Shown piece by piece: positions 32,261-41,086 of a DNA stretch of 64,000 nucleotides (position 1 is its first letter; every line of letters starts with the position of its first letter). The notes under the pieces were generated by a model, which was not told the origin of the DNA, did not search any database, and saw only the letters and a list, made by a program, of their open reading frames with translations. Made by a program: the position numbers and the translations under genes. The stretch spans positions 1,674,001 through 1,738,000 of the forward strand of contig NZ_CP080647.1 in the NCBI RefSeq assembly GCF_019599145.1, read 5' to 3'. The DNA comes from Streptomyces akebiae. Lineage in GTDB: Bacteria > Actinomycetota > Actinomycetes > Streptomycetales > Streptomycetaceae.

Positions 32261-34429
32261 CTATGCGTCTGCCGGGTTCTGTTGGGAGGCGGGTGCGGGT
32301 CGCCTCGTGGCCGGTCGCGCAGTTCCCCGCGCCCCTTCAGGGCGCTCCTGCCCGGCAAGGGGGACCTGGGGGCCGTCCGCTTCCCGGAGCCATCGTCGCA
32401 GGACCCGGTGGACGTGCTCCGCGCCGACCAGGTCCGCGCCTTCCTGCACCGGCTCGGAGAGGACCAGCGGGGACATCAGGAAGGGGCGGGACTGACAGCC
32501 GCCCAGGCCGCCGTGGGAGCCGATCTGTTCCTCGAAGGCGAGGACTTCGCCGTCGGTCGGCTCGTACCAGGAGTTGACCATGATGTCGGCGGTGTGGGGG
32601 AAGCCGTGCGTGCGGCGTACGGCGTCGGCGGCCCCGGGGCCGAAGTCGGCCAGGGGGCCCGGGTGTTCGTCGCTCAGTTCGTCGATCGGGATCTCCGCGC
32701 CGTGCGCGCCGAGGACGACACCGCCGTGTTCCTCGCTGCGGACGAGGACGAAGCCGATGCCGGGGTGGTTGGCGAGGGTGGACAGCAGGGCGGGGTGGCG
32801 GGCGTCGATCTCCTCGCGGCTCATCCGGTGGGAGACGTCGGGGAAGGAGACGAGGCCGAGGTTGCCCGAGGCCAGGGTGATGGGCTCGGAGCGGCGGGTG
32901 GGGCGGTGCTCCTCGACGCCCTCCTCGACGGGGATGCGCAGCGCGGCCCGTACCGCGGCGCGTGCCTCGGCGCCGCTGTGCGTGCGCTGGGCGCGGCGCG
33001 GGACGGGCAGGCCGCAGCCGGCCCGCACCAGGTCGCCGAGGGTGAGGCCGTATCGGGCGAGGAAGGTCTCGCCGGGGCTCTGGCCGTGGTCGGAGAGGAG
33101 GACGATCCGGTAGGCGCGCGGGGCGTGTTCGGCGACCTGGGCGATCAGCGCGAGGGAACGGTCCAGGCGCTGGAGGATCTTCGCGGCGTCCCCGCTGTGC
33201 GGGCCGGAGTGGTGCGCGACCTCGTCGTAGGCCACCAGGTCCGCGTAGATCGCGGCGCGGCCCGCGAGCATGTCCCCGATCACCGCGGCGACGACGACGT
33301 CGCGCTCGACGACGGTCGCGAAGGCCCTGATGAACGGGTAGAGCCCGCCGCGCTTGACGCGGGGGCGCTGCTCGGTGAACCGGGCCCGGCCGGACTGGCC
33401 GATCTCCCGCAGGACGTCGGCGACGAAGGACATGGCGGTGCGGACGGCGTTGGCGGGGTCGGAGAAGTACGCGAAATAGCCGGCGCGGGAGCGGTTCCGC
33501 CTCCCCCGGCGAGCCGCGATCGACAGCACCAGCGCGAGCTGCTCGGCGCCGCCGCTGAAGAGATTGCCGCGGCTGGCGCCGTCGACGGTCAGCAGACCGC
33601 CGTCGCCGGTGCGGTCGACGGCCCGGCGCTGGAGCTCCGCGGCGCTGGAGGGCCGGTTGCAGACCATCACCTCCCGGGTGTCCTTCTCGTACCAGCGGAA
33701 GGCCGGCACGTCGTGGTTGGTGCCGTGCAGGATGCCGAGCTGGCTGGCGCCGGTCTGGCTGGACCAGTCGGTACGCCACGGGGTGAGCCGGTGCGTGGGC
33801 CGGGGGCGGACGGCGCCGGCCGACGCGGGCGGCGCGAGGCCCAGCCACTCGGCGACGGTCGGCATCAGCCCGTTCCGCGTCGCCGACTCCAGCACGTCGT
33901 GGCCGACGCCGTCGAGTTGGAGGAAGACGGTGCCGGGTCCGGCGGGCCCCGGACGGCCTGCCGCGTGTCTGCGGCGGCGGTCGGCCAGGCGGTACAGGCG
34001 GCGCCGGTAGGCGTCGTCGTCCCGTACGGCGAGGGCGCCGCCGGTGGCGGAGGCGACGGCGGACATCACCGCGGCGACGACCACGGCGGTCTCGGGCGCG
34101 GCCGCCCCCTGGCCGGAGGGGGTGAGCCGCAGGGCGAGGAGGAGCAGGGAGCCGTTGAGGAAGAAGACGAGCAGGCCGAGGACGAGCGCCGGGACCAGCA
34201 GCAGGGCCCGCACCAGCAGCGGCCACACGAGCGAGGACAGCAGACCGAACGCGCCGGCGCCGAACGCCGCGGTCACGGCGATCCGCGTGGCGCTCTCACC
34301 GCTCTCGGCCTGGAGCCGGAAGTCGGGCAGCGCGCCGGCGAGTACGAGCATGGTCAGCGTGGACACCGCCCATACGGCGAGCATCCGCCAGATCCCGCTC
34401 AGCACCCTCCGCCAACGACCACCGCCCAC
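32261..34429 (-). CDS. Membrane-anchored alkaline-phosphatase-superfamily hydrolase with holin-like N-terminus
   Basis: 722 residues. Three or four membrane helices (about 14-34, 51-72, 74-102 and 109-135) resemble the phage_holin_4_2 family. The remainder is an alkaline-phosphatase-like phosphodiesterase domain with metal-site motifs LQLDGVGHDVL, SSQTGASQLGILHGTNHD, DLVAYDEVAHHSG and VLLSDHGQSPGETF. Complete metal ligands suggest an active phosphodiesterase or phosphotransferase facing the periplasmic side. The last 35 or so codons lie over an extragenic repeat (32306-32345), giving an odd basic Pro/Arg/Ala tail. It is probably transcribed alone: 93 bp separate it from the MoxR gene downstream. 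Confidence 0.85.
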   Translation of the reverse strand: MGGGRWRRVLSGIWRMLAVWAVSTLTMLVLAGALPDFRLQAESGESATRIAVTAAFGAGAFGLLSSLVWPLLVRALLLVPALVLGLLVFFLNGSLLLLALRLTPSGQGAAAPETAVVVAAVMSAVASATGGALAVRDDDAYRRRLYRLADRRRRHAAGRPGPAGPGTVFLQLDGVGHDVLESATRNGLMPTVAEWLGLAPPASAGAVRPRPTHRLTPWRTDWSSQTGASQLGILHGTNHDVPAFRWYEKDTREVMVCNRPSSAAELQRRAVDRTGDGGLLTVDGASRGNLFSGGAEQLALVLSIAARRGRRNRSRAGYFAYFSDPANAVRTAMSFVADVLREIGQSGRARFTEQRPRVKRGGLYPFIRAFATVVERDVVVAAVIGDMLAGRAAIYADLVAYDEVAHHSGPHSGDAAKILQRLDRSLALIAQVAEHAPRAYRIVLLSDHGQSPGETFLARYGLTLGDLVRAGCGLPVPRRAQRTHSGAEARAAVRAALRIPVEEGVEEHRPTRRSEPITLASGNLGLVSFPDVSHRMSREEIDARHPALLSTLANHPGIGFVLVRSEEHGGVVLGAHGAEIPIDELSDEHPGPLADFGPGAADAVRRTHGFPHTADIMVNSWYEPTDGEVLAFEEQIGSHGGLGGCQSRPFLMSPLVLSEPVQEGADLVGAEHVHRVLRRWLREADGPQVPLAGQERPEGARGTARPATRRPAPASQQNPADA
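32306..32345 (+). repeat. Dispersed extragenic palindromic repeat, copy 2 (inside a 3' coding end)
   Basis: CGTGGCCGGTCGCGCAG then TTCCCCGCGCCCCTTCAGGG. It matches copy 1 at most positions. Unlike the other copies it lies within a reading frame, the antisense tail of the alkaline-phosphatase-like gene. Confidence 0.8.
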
Positions 34430-35338: not shown

Positions 35339-36112
35339 GTGCCGGTGGAGATCACATGGTGGGGTCATGCGACCTGCACCGTGGAGGACTCGGGTACGAG
35401 GGTGCTGACCGACCCCCTTTTCACGCGCCGGCTCGCGCATCTGCGCAGGCGCCGGGGCGCGCTCCCGCCGCCGGAGGCCGCGGTCGCGGACGTGGCGCTG
35501 GTGTCGCATCTCCACGCCGATCATCTGCACGTCCCCTCCCTGGCCCGGCTCGCCCCGGGGACCCGGCTGGTGGTTCCGAGGGGCGCGCCTCGCCAGGTGC
35601 CGGGGCTGCGCAGGCTGGCGCATCTGCGGCTCTGTGAAGCGGCGCCGGGGGACGAGGTCAGGGTGGGTGACCTGGTCGTACGCGCTGTTTCCGCGCGGCA
35701 CGACGGGCGGCGGCTGCCGGTCGGACCGCATCGTTCACCCGCGCTCGGCTTCGTCGTGGAGGGCGAGGCGCGCACCTATTTCGCCGGGGACACCGGGCTG
35801 TTCGAGACCATGTCCAAGGAAGTCGGGCCGGTCGACGTGGCGCTGCTGCCGGTCGGTGGATGGGGCCCGTACCTCGGCGAGGGCCATCTGGACGCGGGGC
35901 GCGCGGCGGAGGCGCTTGCGCTGCTCGCGCCCCGGAGCGCGGTTCCGGTGCACTACGGCACGTACTGGCCGATCGGCATGGACGCCGTGCGCCCCCATGA
36001 ATTCCACGCCCCCGGCGAGGAGTTCGTACGCCTCGCCGCCGTACGCGCTCCCGAGGTGGCCGTGCACCGGCTGGGGCACGGAGAGAGCGTACGGCCGGGG
36101 GTGGCGCGATGA
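35339..36112 (+). CDS. MBL-fold metal-dependent hydrolase (UlaG/NAPE-PLD-like)
   Basis: 257 residues. Starts VEITWWGHATCTVE, and the HxHxDH motif is SHLHADHLH. FAGDTGLFE supplies the bridging Asp and PVHYGTYWP the last His, so the dinuclear metal site is complete. The group is that of UlaG-like and NAPE-PLD-like lactonases/phosphodiesterases, not beta-lactamases. GTG 35339 has AAGGAGG upstream. It precedes a DedA-family gene by 43 bp on the same strand, and another MBL gene of the same group lies just beyond in the opposite direction. A role in membrane-lipid phosphodiester turnover is conceivable but not shown. Confidence 0.9.
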   Translation: MPVEITWWGHATCTVEDSGTRVLTDPLFTRRLAHLRRRRGALPPPEAAVADVALVSHLHADHLHVPSLARLAPGTRLVVPRGAPRQVPGLRRLAHLRLCEAAPGDEVRVGDLVVRAVSARHDGRRLPVGPHRSPALGFVVEGEARTYFAGDTGLFETMSKEVGPVDVALLPVGGWGPYLGEGHLDAGRAAEALALLAPRSAVPVHYGTYWPIGMDAVRPHEFHAPGEEFVRLAAVRAPEVAVHRLGHGESVRPGVAR

Positions 36113-36155
36113 GACGCCCGCCGGCAGGGGCCACAGAGGTCGTGGAGGAAGCTCG

Positions 36156-36770
36156 GTGATCGTCCTGGCCGCGGTGAGCACTCCCGTGCCGTACGCGTCC
36201 ACCCAGCAGGCGATCGGCTATCCCACGCTGTTCCTGCTGGTGCTGATCGGAGCGCTGGTACCGGTGGTGCCGACCGGGGCGCTGGTCAGTTCGGCGGCCG
36301 TGGTGGCGTTCCATCAGACGGCGCCGCTCTCGCTGCTGATGGTGTTCGTGGTGGCGTCGGTCGCCGCGTTCCTCGGGGACATCGCGCTGTACTGGCTGGG
36401 GCGGCGCGGGATGGGGTCCAAGAACGGTTCGCGCTGGCTGGAGGCGATCCGCCGCCGTGCGCCGGAGGACCGGCTGGCCCAGGCGCAGGCGAAGCTCGAC
36501 GACCACGGCGTGACCGTGCTGGTGCTGTCCCGGCTGATGCCGGCCGGGCGTCTGCCGGTGATGCTGGCCTGTCTGCTGTCGAAGATGCCGTTGCGGCGGT
36601 TCGCCCGGGGGAATCTGCCGGCGTGCCTCGCGTGGGCCGTGACGTACCAGTTGATCGGCATCCTGGGCGGGTCCTTGTTCAAGGAGCCGTGGGAAGGGGT
36701 GTTGGCGGCGGTCGTGTTGACGTTGCTGATCAGTGTGGTGCCGAGTGTGTGGCGGCGGGTCGTCCGCTGA
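36156..36770 (+). CDS. DedA-family (VTT domain) membrane protein
   Basis: 204 residues from GTG 36156 (GGAGGAAG upstream). Hydrophobic segments include PTLFLLVLIGALVPVVPTGAL (with the re-entrant-loop Pro pair), SLLMVFVVASVAAFLGDIALYWLGRR (with the family's G-D and GRR), SRLMPAGRLPVMLACLL and the final VLAAVVLTLLISVVPSVW. DedA/VTT proteins are lipid scramblases or flippases, and bacterial members influence undecaprenyl phosphate and phospholipid handling. Probably co-transcribed with the MBL hydrolase upstream, and ends at a hairpin shared with the convergent MBL gene. Confidence 0.9.
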   Translation: MIVLAAVSTPVPYASTQQAIGYPTLFLLVLIGALVPVVPTGALVSSAAVVAFHQTAPLSLLMVFVVASVAAFLGDIALYWLGRRGMGSKNGSRWLEAIRRRAPEDRLAQAQAKLDDHGVTVLVLSRLMPAGRLPVMLACLLSKMPLRRFARGNLPACLAWAVTYQLIGILGGSLFKEPWEGVLAAVVLTLLISVVPSVWRRVVR

Positions 36771-36800
36771 GCGCCTGTGGTCGTGGTGTTCGGCGCTGTT

Positions 36801-36845
36801 CCCGTGCCCGTGAAGGGCGGGCTGTGCCCCCTTCAGCGGCACGGG
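36801..36845. terminator. Bidirectional terminator between dedA-like and MBL genes
   Basis: An outer 8-bp stem CCCGTGCC / GGCACGGG and, after a 2x2 internal loop, an inner 7-bp stem TGAAGGG / CCCTTCA, placed between two convergent genes. Confidence 0.8.
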
Positions 36846-36858
36846 TGCGCTCCGTCGG

Positions 36859-37983
36859 TCAGTCCAGCACGCGGGAGCCGCCGATCGGCAGGTCCCACAG
36901 GTTCTCGCGCGGCAGTCCGGCCGCCTGCCATGCCGTCCTCACCCGCCGCAAGGGTTCCAGGACCGGTTCGGCCGACAGGACGAAGGTGGCCCAGTGCATG
37001 GGGGCCATGTGGCGGGCGCCGAGGTCCCGGAAGGCGCGGACCGCTTCCTCCGGGTCGCAGTGCACGTCGCTCAGCCACCAGCGGGGGTCGTAGGCGCCGA
37101 TGGGCAGGAGCGCGACGTCGATGCCGGGGTGACGGCGGCCGATGAGGGAGAACCAGTGGCCGTAGCCGGTGTCGCCTGCGAAGTAGAGGCGCCTGCCGTC
37201 GGGGGCCGTGAGGACCCAGCCGCCCCACAGGGAGCGGCAGGTGTCGGTGAGGGTGCGCTTGGACCAGTGGTGGGCCGGTACGAAGTCGAAGCGGACACCG
37301 TCGAGTTCCGCCGCCTCCCACCAGTCCAGCTCGGTGACCCGGTCGAACCGGCGCCGCCGGAACCAGCGGCCGAGTCCGGCGGGCACGAACACCGGGGTGT
37401 CGCGCGGGAGTCTGGCCAGGGTGGGGGCGTCGAGGTGGTCGTAGTGGTTGTGGCTGATGACCACCGCGTCCACGCGGGGCAGCGCGTCCCAGTCGATGCC
37501 CACAGGGGTGATCCGTGCCGGGGTACCCAGGATGCGGCGGGACCAGACGGGGTCGGTGAGGACGGTCAGCCCGCCGATCCGCACCACCCAACTCGCGTGC
37601 CCCGCCCAGGAGACGGCGACGGTACGGGCGTCCACCCTCGGCAACGGGCCGGGCTCGTACGGCAGTCGCGGGATGTCGACTAGCCCGTCGGCGCCGGGCC
37701 GTACCGCGCCCTCTCGGGCGAACCGGGCGAAGGCCTTCAGCCCGGGGAGCGGCGCGGTGAGCCGGTCGGCGAAGGACCTCGGCCAGCGGCGCGGCTCACC
37801 GAGCGGCCGGGGCTCGGCGAGCGGTGGGAGGAGGGGTGTCCCGGGCGCCGGATCGTCGGCGTGCCTGGTTGTCGACGTGGGGGGCGGAGTCGCCGAGGTG
37901 GCCGGGGTGGGGGTGGCCGGGGTGGGGGCGGTCGCCCCTGGCGGGGTCGTCGTGGAGGTGGTCGACTCGGACTGCTGCGTCAT
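36859..37983 (-). CDS. MBL-fold hydrolase with Thr/Pro-rich N-terminal tail (NAPE-PLD-like)
   Basis: 374 residues. The first 45 or so residues are Thr/Pro/Ala low complexity (TPATPTPATSATPPPTS), with no signal peptide visible. The catalytic part carries VSWAGHASWVVRIGG, SHNHYDHLD (HxHxDH), VPAHHWSKR, YFAGDTGYGHWF and PMHWATF. The HHWS-to-FAGDTGYG pattern identifies the NAPE-PLD/RomA-like group, which hydrolyses phosphodiesters or lipid-like esters. All metal ligands are retained. Upstream by 107 bp on the same strand is the lysine-free aminotransferase-fold gene, so the two may share a transcript. Confidence 0.9.
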   Translation of the reverse strand: MTQQSESTTSTTTPPGATAPTPATPTPATSATPPPTSTTRHADDPAPGTPLLPPLAEPRPLGEPRRWPRSFADRLTAPLPGLKAFARFAREGAVRPGADGLVDIPRLPYEPGPLPRVDARTVAVSWAGHASWVVRIGGLTVLTDPVWSRRILGTPARITPVGIDWDALPRVDAVVISHNHYDHLDAPTLARLPRDTPVFVPAGLGRWFRRRRFDRVTELDWWEAAELDGVRFDFVPAHHWSKRTLTDTCRSLWGGWVLTAPDGRRLYFAGDTGYGHWFSLIGRRHPGIDVALLPIGAYDPRWWLSDVHCDPEEAVRAFRDLGARHMAPMHWATFVLSAEPVLEPLRRVRTAWQAAGLPRENLWDLPIGGSRVLD

Positions 37984-38090
37984 CGAGGAGGCTCCCGTCG
38001 CTGAGAGTCGTCACGAAGGATCGTCGTCGCTGAAGGCCACTGAGGGTCGCCGGGGTCGGTCGCCGAGGTCTCCCGGATCGCCGAGGAGCG

Positions 38091-39308
38091 TCATCGCAGG
38101 TCCTCGAACGCCGTCCCGAGAAGCGCCAACACCCGTGCCACATGGGGTAGTTCCAGGGGATCGGGCGCCGTGAGGGCCTGGGCGCGCTCCGCGTCGGTGG
38201 TGCCGAGGAACGCGTCGGTGGACAGCCGGACACGCAGCGCCCCGAGGTCGTCCCCGAACCGGTGACCGCCGGGCGCGGGCATCCCGAGCCGGTCGGTGAG
38301 GAAGTCCTCCAGCTCCTGGGCGTCCCCGACGCCGTACCCGGCGAGGGCCGGGCCCAGCGGGGCGAGGTCGGCGTACAGATGCCGTCCGGCGCGCGGCGGC
38401 AGGGCGAGCGCCCCGGCGGCGACCACGGCCCGGTGCGCGGCGTCGGCGAGGCGCGCGTGCAGGCGTACGGCGGCGGCGAGCCGTTCGGTCACGGGCTCCG
38501 GCTCGTCGAGCGCGTGGGCGGCAGCCGCGGCGACGGGGGTGGCGACCCGGGCGCCCAGCGCGGTGAGCACGTCCAGGACCCGGTCGCGCAGCCCCGCCCC
38601 GTTCTCGTTCGCCGGGAAGCGGGCGACGGCGGCCGGCCAGCCGGCCGGCAGGAAGGCACCGGCGAGGTCGCTGACGACGGTGACCCGGTCGGGCAGCATC
38701 TCGGCGGGGCTGAGCAGCACGGTGTCGTGCGGGTCGTGCACGGTGTCGCGCCAGGTCTCGTCGCTGACCAGCTGCAACCCCTCCCCCAGGGCCGCCTCCA
38801 TGGCCTCGTGCACCAGTTCGGGCGGGGCCACGGTCGCGGTCGGGTCGTCGGCGACGCACAGCACGAGCAGCCGGGGATCGCCTCCCTCGGCACGGATCCT
38901 GCGGACGGTCTCCAGGAGCGCGTACGGGTCCGGAACGCCCCCGCACTCGGCGGGTGTGGCCACGTGGAAGACGGATCTCCCCAAGGCACGTGCCTGCGGC
39001 TCCCACCAGGCGGCGCACGGCCGAGGGAGCAGCACGTCGCCCCCGATCGCGGCGGTCAGGGCGAGGAGCAGGGCGGGGGCACCGGGAGCGGCCAGTACCC
39101 GGTCCCGGGTGGTGGCCAGTCCGCGCCGCTCCCAGTAACCGCAGGCGGCGTCCAGGAGGGCGGGATCACCACCGAGCGGGACGGGGTGGGGGCGGTCCGC
39201 CGCGGCGGAGAGCACGGCGGCCAGTGCGGGCAGGACGGGCAGTCCCTGGGCGGGAAGGGGCGGGCCGTAGCGGACCGGACCGTGCCCTTCCGGATCCGTC
39301 CGCCGCAT
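38091..39308 (-). CDS. Class I/II aminotransferase-fold protein without any lysine (probable pseudoenzyme)
   Basis: 405 residues, normal length for fold-type I aminotransferases. Recognisable landmarks are PGAPALLLALTAAI (active-site start), CVADDPTATVAPPELV (the usual NPTG region), VSDETWRD (Asp183 for the PLP ring nitrogen, Tyr replaced by Trp186) and SDLAGAFLPAGWPAA, where family members have SxSKxFxxxGxRxG. The PLP-binding Lys is Gly217 and the phosphate-binding Arg is Pro225. No lysine occurs anywhere in the protein, so an internal aldimine cannot form. It may be a regulatory or scaffold relative. Start ATG 39308. It is followed by the MBL gene after 107 bp. Confidence 0.82.
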   Translation of the reverse strand: MRRTDPEGHGPVRYGPPLPAQGLPVLPALAAVLSAAADRPHPVPLGGDPALLDAACGYWERRGLATTRDRVLAAPGAPALLLALTAAIGGDVLLPRPCAAWWEPQARALGRSVFHVATPAECGGVPDPYALLETVRRIRAEGGDPRLLVLCVADDPTATVAPPELVHEAMEAALGEGLQLVSDETWRDTVHDPHDTVLLSPAEMLPDRVTVVSDLAGAFLPAGWPAAVARFPANENGAGLRDRVLDVLTALGARVATPVAAAAAHALDEPEPVTERLAAAVRLHARLADAAHRAVVAAGALALPPRAGRHLYADLAPLGPALAGYGVGDAQELEDFLTDRLGMPAPGGHRFGDDLGALRVRLSTDAFLGTTDAERAQALTAPDPLELPHVARVLALLGTAFEDLR

Positions 39309-39516
39309 GTGTGCCTCCGCCCGCTCCGGTGCGTTGCCCGGTGCTCACCCCCGCGGGATCGCTCCGGGACGTCGATAGGTGCTCCCTCGTGCGTACGGGG
39401 TGCGGCGGCGTGCCGTGTCCGAACCCGGCAGGCGTCGCGCGCGCCCTCGGCCTGTCAGTACCCAGGCTCACCCGCCCCAAGGGCCCCGCTGCGGGTTGCA
39501 CCGGTCACACGCCCGC

Positions 39517-40212
39517 TCATGGCGTCCACCGGTCCCGGCGGCGCAGCCGGTGCACGGCCGCGCCGAGCGCTCCCGCGACGAGGAGGCCACCGGCGACCAT
39601 GGCCGGGACCGAGTCGGTGAAGGCACCGCCCTCGCCCGCGTGGGAGCCGCGCTGGACCGGGGCCGGCTGGTGGGTGGAGTGAGGGGAGGGCTGGTGCGTG
39701 GGCTGTCGGGTCGGTTGGTGCGTGGGCTCGTCGGTGGGCCCGTACTGATCGCCGCCGAGGGAGCCGCCGAGGGAGACGTCGAAGGCGGCGCTCCACTGTT
39801 TGCCCTCGCCGCCCGGGGCCGCCGGGCACATGCCGTCGACGCCCCACTCGGTGGCCGGGTTCGCCTCGTCGACGGCGGCCTCGAAGTCCGCGGCGGGCGC
39901 GATCTTCGCCGTGCCCTGGTACGACGGGCCGGCGGCGGAGTCGCCGTCGCCGGGGAGGCGTTGCAGCGTGACCGTGCCCTGTTCGAACGCCTGTGAACTG
40001 GCCTCGATGGTCGCGGGGACGGTGCCGCCGGCCGGGTCGCAGGCGACGGAGAAGGTGAGGGTGCCGCCCGGTTCGACGGACTGCGGGTTCACCTCGGCCG
40101 CGGGATCCGCGTACGAGGGCGGGGCGGCGGCGCCCAGGACGACACCGATCAGGGCGGTGGCGGACAGGACACGGGCTCTGCGGCGCATGGGCGGACGCGT
40201 GGGCGGGGGCAT
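39517..40212 (-). CDS. Secreted, C-terminally anchored protein of unknown function
   Basis: 231 residues from ATG 40212 (AAGGAG 9 nt upstream). Signal peptide RVLSATALIGVVLGAAAPPSYA, then a beta-rich domain of about 110 residues beginning VNPQSVEPGGTLTFSVAC with two Cys residues likely to pair. A surface-exposed stalk of THQPT-type repeats (about 158-178) leads to a membrane helix VPAMVAGGLLVAGALGAAV and the basic tail HRLRRRDRW. The layout is that of a cell-surface protein anchored in the membrane rather than by sortase. The domain recalls YcnI/lipoprotein-like Ig folds, but I do not recognise a family. Confidence 0.78.
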   Translation of the reverse strand: MPPPTRPPMRRRARVLSATALIGVVLGAAAPPSYADPAAEVNPQSVEPGGTLTFSVACDPAGGTVPATIEASSQAFEQGTVTLQRLPGDGDSAAGPSYQGTAKIAPAADFEAAVDEANPATEWGVDGMCPAAPGGEGKQWSAAFDVSLGGSLGGDQYGPTDEPTHQPTRQPTHQPSPHSTHQPAPVQRGSHAGEGGAFTDSVPAMVAGGLLVAGALGAAVHRLRRRDRWTP

Positions 40213-40369
40213 GGAGGGGACTCCTTCGGGCGGCTCCGGCGGGCGGGGGGCACGACCGCCGTGCCCCGCGTCCATCAGAGCGCTGTGCCCGGCGGGGCGC
40301 GCGCCGCCGGGCACCATTCGCGGGACTCGAAGGGCCGACCGGGTGACGGTCGGGGCGCTCCGGCTCGGC

Positions 40370-41086
40370 TCAGCCGGAGAGCGAGACCAGTTCCCGCTCC
40401 AGGCCCCTGCCCCTCTTCTCCACCACGGCCGACGCGACGTCCGACAGCTTGCGGTTGGTGCCCTGGGAGATGCGGCGCAGCACGGTGAACGCGGCGTCCG
40501 CGTCGCAGCCGAGGACGTGCATGACCATGCCGCAGGCCTGGTCGACGACGGGCCGAGAGCGCAGGGCGGCGCCGAGCTGGTCGAGTTCGGTGAGGGCGGC
40601 CCGGTAGGAGCGGTCGCGGACGATACAGGTCGCGGCGAGGTCGCCGAGGGCGCGGGCGGCGCCGTGCGGGGCGTCCTCCAGGGCGTGGGGGCGGAAGCTG
40701 TAGAGGCTGAGGGTCACGGTGAGACCCGAGCGCCTGAAGGGGAGCGTGATGCTGGACCGTACGCCCGCGTCGAGGGCCGCCGCCCGGTACTCCGGCCAGC
40801 GTTCCTCTCGCAGCAGATCGGCGGAGTCCACGGGCTCACCGCGCTCCAGCGCGGCCGGCAGCGGCCCGTCGCCCGAGCGCAGTTGGACGGCGACGAGTCC
40901 GGCGAGGTCGGGGTGGGTGACCGCGGCGGGCCGCTCGGTGCCGCTGTCGGACACCATGCCGCTGGCACCGCAGCAGTCGTTGGTGCAGCGGGCGGCCTGT
41001 TCGACGAGTTCGGAGAGCCTTCTGTCCGGATGTGCGGATTCCACCGATTCCCGGCCCACGCGGCCGAGTTGTTCTCTTTCCGGCAT
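40370..41086 (-). CDS. GAF-ANTAR antitermination regulator
   Basis: 238 residues. A GAF sensor domain (about 28-165) contains DSADLLREERWPEYRAAALDAG and TVTLSLYS. The C-terminal ANTAR RNA-binding domain (about 172-232) is LGAALRSRPVVDQACGMVMHVLGCDADAAFTVLRR with VASAVVE. ANTAR proteins bind paired hexanucleotide stem-loops in nascent RNA to prevent termination. Here the GAF domain would sense a ligand or redox state. It is divergent from a PAS/GAF protein gene, and the two probably form a signalling unit. A GTTT-N15-GGGAAG SigB-like element, weak, lies upstream. Confidence 0.9.
   Translation of the reverse strand: MPEREQLGRVGRESVESAHPDRRLSELVEQAARCTNDCCGASGMVSDSGTERPAAVTHPDLAGLVAVQLRSGDGPLPAALERGEPVDSADLLREERWPEYRAAALDAGVRSSITLPFRRSGLTVTLSLYSFRPHALEDAPHGAARALGDLAATCIVRDRSYRAALTELDQLGAALRSRPVVDQACGMVMHVLGCDADAAFTVLRRISQGTNRKLSDVASAVVEKRGRGLERELVSLSG

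Follow-up and report, generated by a model that had tools for sequence, protein, structure and literature searches.

Class I/II aminotransferases of fold type I, such as Thermus AspAT (PDB 1bjw), the plant prephenate aminotransferase (5wmh) and the actinobacterial proteins P0126–P0130, depend on pyridoxal 5'-phosphate (PLP). The residues that form the Schiff base, line the phosphate cup, stack on the ring, contact the pyridine nitrogen and bind the substrate carboxylate are well established for class I aminotransferases, and their positions here were taken from alignments. We analyzed a gene of Streptomyces akebiae whose 405-residue product shares with these enzymes a predicted fold, the Pfam family PF00155 and the equivalents of Asp183 and Arg359, but lacks the Schiff-base lysine, the phosphate-binding arginine, the stacking tryptophan and the asparagine of the NPTG motif. 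The gene lies within a stretch of 64,000 nucleotides (contig NZ_CP080647.1, positions 1,674,001–1,738,000), termed the window, to which all coordinates refer. The lysine-less pseudoenzyme has one origin and its gene usually precedes that of a hydrolase of the NAPE-PLD type, here termed MBL1 after its metallo-beta-lactamase (MBL) fold.

Dead PLP-enzyme partners are already known. One precedent descends from tryptophan synthase beta, which belongs to another fold type than the class I aminotransferases. This is TSB-like of eudicots, according to its description a non-catalytic PLP-enzyme paralogue that works by activating its partner TSA (PMC12727527); the present pseudoenzyme likewise derives from a PLP enzyme, whereas partner and reaction are unrelated. 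Another is hLCB1 (SPTLC1), a serine palmitoyltransferase subunit of PLP-enzyme fold that, according to PMC3794620, lacks the PLP lysine. The partner of LCB1 is a catalytic relative, LCB2, whereas the conserved neighbour of our pseudoenzyme is an unrelated MBL-fold hydrolase. This neighbour resembles NAPE-PLD in sequence over 252 query residues, with the HxHxDH stretch aligned, and differs from it in being bacterial and in having its gene preceded by the pseudoenzyme gene. No published description of the pseudoenzyme family was found among open-licence PMC papers, where broader searches turned up papers on other subjects by title and abstract, and a single search there gave no bacterial role for NAPE-PLD.

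A lysine-free protein with a predicted aminotransferase fold

The protein is encoded on the minus strand:

38091–39308, minus strand, lysine-free class I/II aminotransferase-fold pseudoenzyme of 405 amino acids (aa) (open reading frame, Pfam, alignment, tree, predicted fold)

The open reading frame runs from ATG to TGA and its translation contains 34 arginines and no lysine, confirming what a first-pass annotation of the letters had reported, whereas on the plus strand a stop breaks the interval and no known gene is recognizable. The protein matched PF00155 (Aminotran_1_2) with 45.7 bits against a cut-off of 19.7, and residues 14–405 are predicted to adopt the full-length fold type I architecture of a large and a small domain, so that the predicted fold is intact. 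Alignment with homologues and with L002, a catalytic paralogue encoded elsewhere in this genome (41% identity, normal motifs), placed Gly217 at the PLP-lysine position and Pro225 at the phosphate-arginine position, while alignment with L002 identified Asp183 as the pyridine-nitrogen aspartate and DPTA as the degraded NPTG motif; the first-pass annotation had likewise read Gly217, Pro225, a pyridine-nitrogen Asp and a degraded NPTG region. Gly217 and Pro225 were common to all 120 proteins listed by the first homology search, the window protein included, and on this ground a frame or sequencing error in 38091–39308 was rejected. In one other genome of the genus (G005:C1:6479954-6481098) the pseudoenzyme matches as two overlapping pieces, for which a frameshift or sequencing error is possible.

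Dismantling of the PLP site

Two protein searches (120 matches listed each) together with fetched loci, each contributing a single protein and only through a match longer than 250 residues, yielded 421 proteins; two of at least 700 aa were dropped before alignment. The remaining 419 homologues split into 71 proteins with the PLP residues, termed catalytic, and 348 (329 distinct) without Lys217. Lys217, Lys78, Trp99, Asn155, Tyr186 and Arg225 are invariant in the catalytic group and Ser77 is present in 70 of its 71 members. None of the 348 Lys217-less proteins has Lys217, Lys78, Trp99 or Asn155, and Ser77, Tyr186 and Arg225 persist in only 9, 33 and 8 of them, respectively. The corresponding codons in the window are as follows:

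38658–38660, minus strand, codon 217, Gly replacing the PLP Schiff-base Lys (Lys in 71/71 catalytic and 0/348 clade members; Gly in 298/348)
38634–38636, minus strand, codon 225, Pro replacing the PLP phosphate-binding Arg (Arg in 71/71 catalytic; clade Pro in 336/348, Arg in 8/348)
39075–39080, minus strand, codons 77–78, Ala-Pro replacing Ser-Lys (Lys78, the second invariant catalytic lysine, in 71/71 catalytic and 0/348 clade members)
38760–38762, minus strand, codon 183, retained Asp (348/348 clade, 71/71 catalytic)
38232–38234, minus strand, codon 359, retained Arg (337/348 clade, 71/71 catalytic; PDB alignment)

With Ala77, Pro225, Ala99 and Asp155, the window protein has lost the phosphate-cup, stacking and NPTG residues of a PLP site, and with Gly217 and no lysine elsewhere it has no residue for the Schiff base of PLP-dependent aminotransferases. 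Together with the clade-wide site loss, this supports the earlier proposal that the protein would be unable to form a PLP aldimine. Part of the old site is nonetheless retained: Asp183, the pyridine-nitrogen aspartate of aminotransferases, and Arg359, whose position was set by the PDB alignment and which aligns with the substrate-carboxylate arginine of class I enzymes, are accompanied by Glu184 and Arg361, both present in 348 of 348 clade members. Among the catalytic proteins, position 361 is either Arg or Lys.

Such retention could reflect an old pocket rebuilt for a new, PLP-independent reaction or for non-covalent use of the cofactor, a reading that we consider improbable. Besides the retained residues, it draws on the near-invariant, clade-specific Trp101, Asp155, Thr185, Asp214 and Pro221 (332–345 of 348), which adjoin old active-site positions in sequence, and on the constraint on position 217 itself, Gly in most members. 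However, the phosphate cup (Ser77, Arg225), the stacking Trp99 and Asn155 are lost in nearly all proteins, and Ala, Ser, Pro, Glu, Phe, Asp or Val also occurs at position 217, with insertions there in some divergent members. Because the residues for phosphate binding and ring stacking are gone, non-covalent use of PLP was judged unlikely.

Most named entries among the 120 homologues listed carry the name 'aminotransferase class I/II-fold pyridoxal phosphate-dependent enzyme', which is contradicted by their sequences; metabolic models that treat the gene as an aminotransferase are wrong.

Separately, we observed insertions at the former PLP-lysine loop, near residue 217, in the divergent members L150, L165 and L167. 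The gene of the catalytic paralogue (L002, 1306–2661) directly follows an open reading frame that by eye resembles an AMP-forming ligase, and may belong to a biosynthetic cluster.

Origin, distribution and constraint

We built a tree of 49 representatives after masking the discriminating columns. A branch supported at 100/100 separated the Lys217-less proteins from the others; Lys217 changed once and Arg225 twice on this tree, which has a midpoint root only. A quick tree built earlier took its root from two weaker homologues in the S. akebiae genome and nested the Lys217-less clade among catalytic proteins, with long outgroup branches and hence a tentative root. The trees leave out members shorter than 330 aa as well as near-copies (at 70% and 65% identity), and that of the 49 representatives also leaves out the outgroup rows. 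The Lys217-less group is one clade with a single loss. Its first-branching rows, P0121–P0124 (two named Wenjunlia), have Arg225 without Lys217; therefore, by parsimony, the lysine would have been lost first, and these early-branching members offer a readable example of stepwise dismantling of a PLP site.

Genome searches at a threshold of E ≤ 1e-30 returned orthologue-level matches in 36 of the 37 genomes of the genus searched, a few of them fragments or split copies, and in none of 24 genomes from other families. Across the Streptomycetaceae, 217 of 297 drawn genomes matched, representing 14 of 17 genera, a count that includes catalytic homologues; the lysine was present in 16 of 182 locus proteins. 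Loci from named genomes were all Streptomyces among the best 80 of 403; one homologue, P0036, comes from Streptomyces avermitilis. Some genomes of the genus gave no match (G028, G278, G296 and G311).

The ratio of nonsynonymous to synonymous substitution rates (dN/dS) had a median of 0.20 over 45 pairs from ten close relatives, indicating purifying selection. No listed genome match contained an internal stop codon, and the columns that are invariant in all 348 proteins persist across ~48–100% identity. A decaying gene, or an artefact of annotation or sequencing, is in this light scarcely credible: split or fragmentary copies occur in few genomes (e.g. G005 and G031, with contig-end pieces in G001 and G010), but the pseudogene reading was rejected as in effect refuted by the conservation. 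The family is a conserved pseudoenzyme family that is annotated as an enzyme, and the pseudoenzyme status first proposed from the window alone is borne out by clade-wide site loss, conservation and purifying selection.

Lysine content

The absence of lysine had initially been attributed to selection, for example to avoid pupylation. To place it, background genes were called over 800 kb of the same genome with a crude gene caller, the genes covering 65% of the DNA. None of 75 genes of 350–449 aa was lysine-free (mean 8.3 lysines), and in the larger set of 195 genes with 350 aa or more there was one. The pseudoenzyme gene is itself extreme in composition, its G+C at codon positions 1 and 2 (Lys and Arg codons set aside) lying at the 99th percentile and the 2-kb stretch that holds it having the highest G+C (0.762) of the window's 32 rows. 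A composition regression over 311 genes, with an r2 of only 0.22, gave an expectation of ~2.9 lysines, placing zero at z = −1.7.

Selection against lysine itself, such as escape from pupylation or acetylation, would accord with the 226 of 329 distinct Lys217-less proteins that have no lysine and with a Lys/(Lys+Arg) ratio of 0.014 in the pseudoenzyme family, lower than in any of the 10 neighbouring families for which a count was possible (0.046–0.274). It would also accord with the replacement of Lys111, found in 53 of 71 catalytic relatives, by Arg in 329 of 348 clade members, and with the absence of lysine-free genes among the eight background genes of similar composition. Against it, strict absence does not hold among orthologues: the alignment with homologues proposed as a check on the claim returned 1–3 lysines in 103 of the 329 distinct proteins, and among the 120 homologues listed, the lysines of the 29 that carry 1–3 are spread over 15 alignment columns. 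Catalytic relatives have few lysines to begin with (mean 4.56), two of them being the invariant active-site Lys78 and Lys217, and several flanking genes are lysine-poor as well, the phosphodiesterase-like NPPase of the window having 3 lysines in 722 aa. Lysine avoidance as the main cause was rejected on the scattered lysines of relatives, the composition and the lysine-poor neighbours, and we regard it as very improbable, although some extra bias beyond composition may contribute. Our data partly show that the absence mainly reflects the loss of two active-site lysines in a lysine-poor family and DNA region; loss of the entire PLP site is the strong signal, whereas the lysine count lies in the tail without being extraordinary.

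The adjacent NAPE-PLD-type hydrolase

The gene next downstream and its junction with the pseudoenzyme gene comprise the following features:

36859–37983, minus strand, MBL1, NAPE-PLD-type MBL-fold hydrolase (PDB 4qn9, E = 1.6e-57; Pfam PF12706)
37984–38090, minus strand, gap of 107 bases that separates the stop of the pseudoenzyme gene from the MBL1 start (window locus; other loci overlap by 4 bases instead)
37959–37990, minus strand, DNA block around the MBL1 start, conserved nearly base for base (12 chosen, aligned junctions)

The 4qn9 match covers MBL1 residues 122–373 with the HxHxDH motif aligned (SHNHYDHLD), identifying MBL1 by sequence as a NAPE-PLD homologue. At an identity of at least 46%, and after removal of 21 identical copies, we obtained 161 distinct loci, including a few fragments in which position 217 is unseen. 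Six of these end at or just after the pseudoenzyme gene and are uninformative; in 147 of the other 155, MBL1 lies directly downstream on the same strand. Lysine-less loci with this arrangement came from 9 genera (g1, g19–g22, g25, g26, g29, g30). A separate locus comparison found MBL1 in 11 of 11 lysine-less loci, whereas none of nine catalytic loci had any of the neighbours tested.

A stop/start overlap of 4 bases is a common sign of translational coupling, and 93 of the 147 MBL1-adjacent loci show one (91 ATGA, 2 GTGA). In the close group of the window, the pseudoenzyme frame stops earlier and a gap follows, with the DNA around the MBL1 start nearly the same over the 12 chosen junctions. Scanning 36600–40500 for consensus promoters and terminators found nothing, a result that decides neither way, with 0.5 terminator-like sites expected by chance. 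Based on the overlap in 93 of all 161 distinct loci and the terminator-free 107-base gap of the window, the two genes likely share a transcript, as had been surmised earlier. Within the block 37959–37990 (CTCCTCGATGACGCAGCAGTCCGAGTCGACC), third codon positions are conserved too while the flanks vary widely, and a regulatory or translation element is possible.

Possible roles of the pseudoenzyme

We somewhat favour a role in which the pseudo-aminotransferase, acting without chemistry of its own, assists or regulates the adjacent NAPE-PLD-like hydrolase or the membrane-lipid process to which that enzyme would belong. Sequence, tree and synteny show that an actinobacterial PLP aminotransferase lost its Schiff-base lysine and the rest of the PLP site in an ancestor of those Streptomycetaceae that carry the gene, and that the gene now lies directly ahead of the NAPE-PLD-type gene in nearly all loci. 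The predicted fold was kept, as were Asp183, Arg359 of the carboxylate site and a number of clade-specific residues, many of which lie in helices 128–140 and 163–175. The protein may bind a ligand, either a carboxylate or a compound resembling an amino acid, or a partner protein, and would thereby help or regulate MBL1 or that lipid process; its action on or together with MBL1 is inferred. A more specific version, in which a bacterial NAPE-PLD would have this protein, kept across Streptomyces and relatives, as its own regulatory subunit or chaperone, and an amino-acid-like or carboxylate ligand sensed in the retained Asp183/Arg359 pocket would control the release of N-acyl amines or a related lipid, appears possible but doubtful. 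Should the connection to the hydrolase prove functional, this would be a bacterial dead PLP enzyme reused as a partner, beside a homologue of a mammalian lipid-signalling enzyme.

Several observations weigh against a role tied to MBL1. Eight of the 155 informative loci, five from the same genus and three from other genera, have no adjacent MBL1, and in seven of these, all but L175, constraint appears little changed, five proteins breaking none of 70 conserved columns and two breaking 2–3. Where the pseudoenzyme is kept without its neighbour, therefore, either MBL1 lies elsewhere in the genome or the role does not need it. The tight 4-base overlap is confined to loci of the same genus and occurs in none of the 12 distinct MBL1-bearing loci of other genera, where the genes are close too; it is young rather than ancient. 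The synteny is also partly that of a conserved chromosomal region, since the DedA, MBL2 and phosphodiesterase genes described below follow.

These loci without clear relaxation, and the restricted overlap, would be expected if the pseudoenzyme worked independently of MBL1, as a scaffold, a ligand sensor or the heterodimer partner of another aminotransferase, with the operon a matter of economy. Fold type I enzymes are usually dimers, and a catalytic paralogue exists in the same genome. hLCB1, as described in PMC3794620, is a precedent for a lysine-less partner. On the other side stand the MBL1 adjacency across nine genera and the patchy occurrence of the catalytic paralogue, a second match at 40–44% identity being listed in only 4 of 37 genomes of the genus. 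On balance, an MBL1-independent role is a tentative alternative that deserves to be kept in view, less probable than assistance to the hydrolase or its lipid process.

Wider synteny

Beyond MBL1, the synteny continues in many loci with further conserved neighbours, which in the window are:

36123–36770, plus strand, DedA/VTT membrane protein in convergent orientation, start provisional (family search, synteny)
35339–36112, plus strand, MBL2, second MBL-fold hydrolase, UPF0173-like though below that model's cut-off (family search, synteny)
32261–34429, minus strand, phosphodiesterase-like protein of 722 aa with an N-terminal holin-type membrane domain (Pfam PF01663 and PF04020, synteny)

The lysine-poor phosphodiesterase protein (32261–34429) trails the pseudoenzyme/MBL1 pair in many relatives. 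Upstream of the pseudoenzyme gene, on the same strand, 39517–40317 encodes a protein whose amino terminus looks signal-like by eye and whose PT-rich repeats match PF04886 below the cut-off; it is less conserved than most other neighbours.
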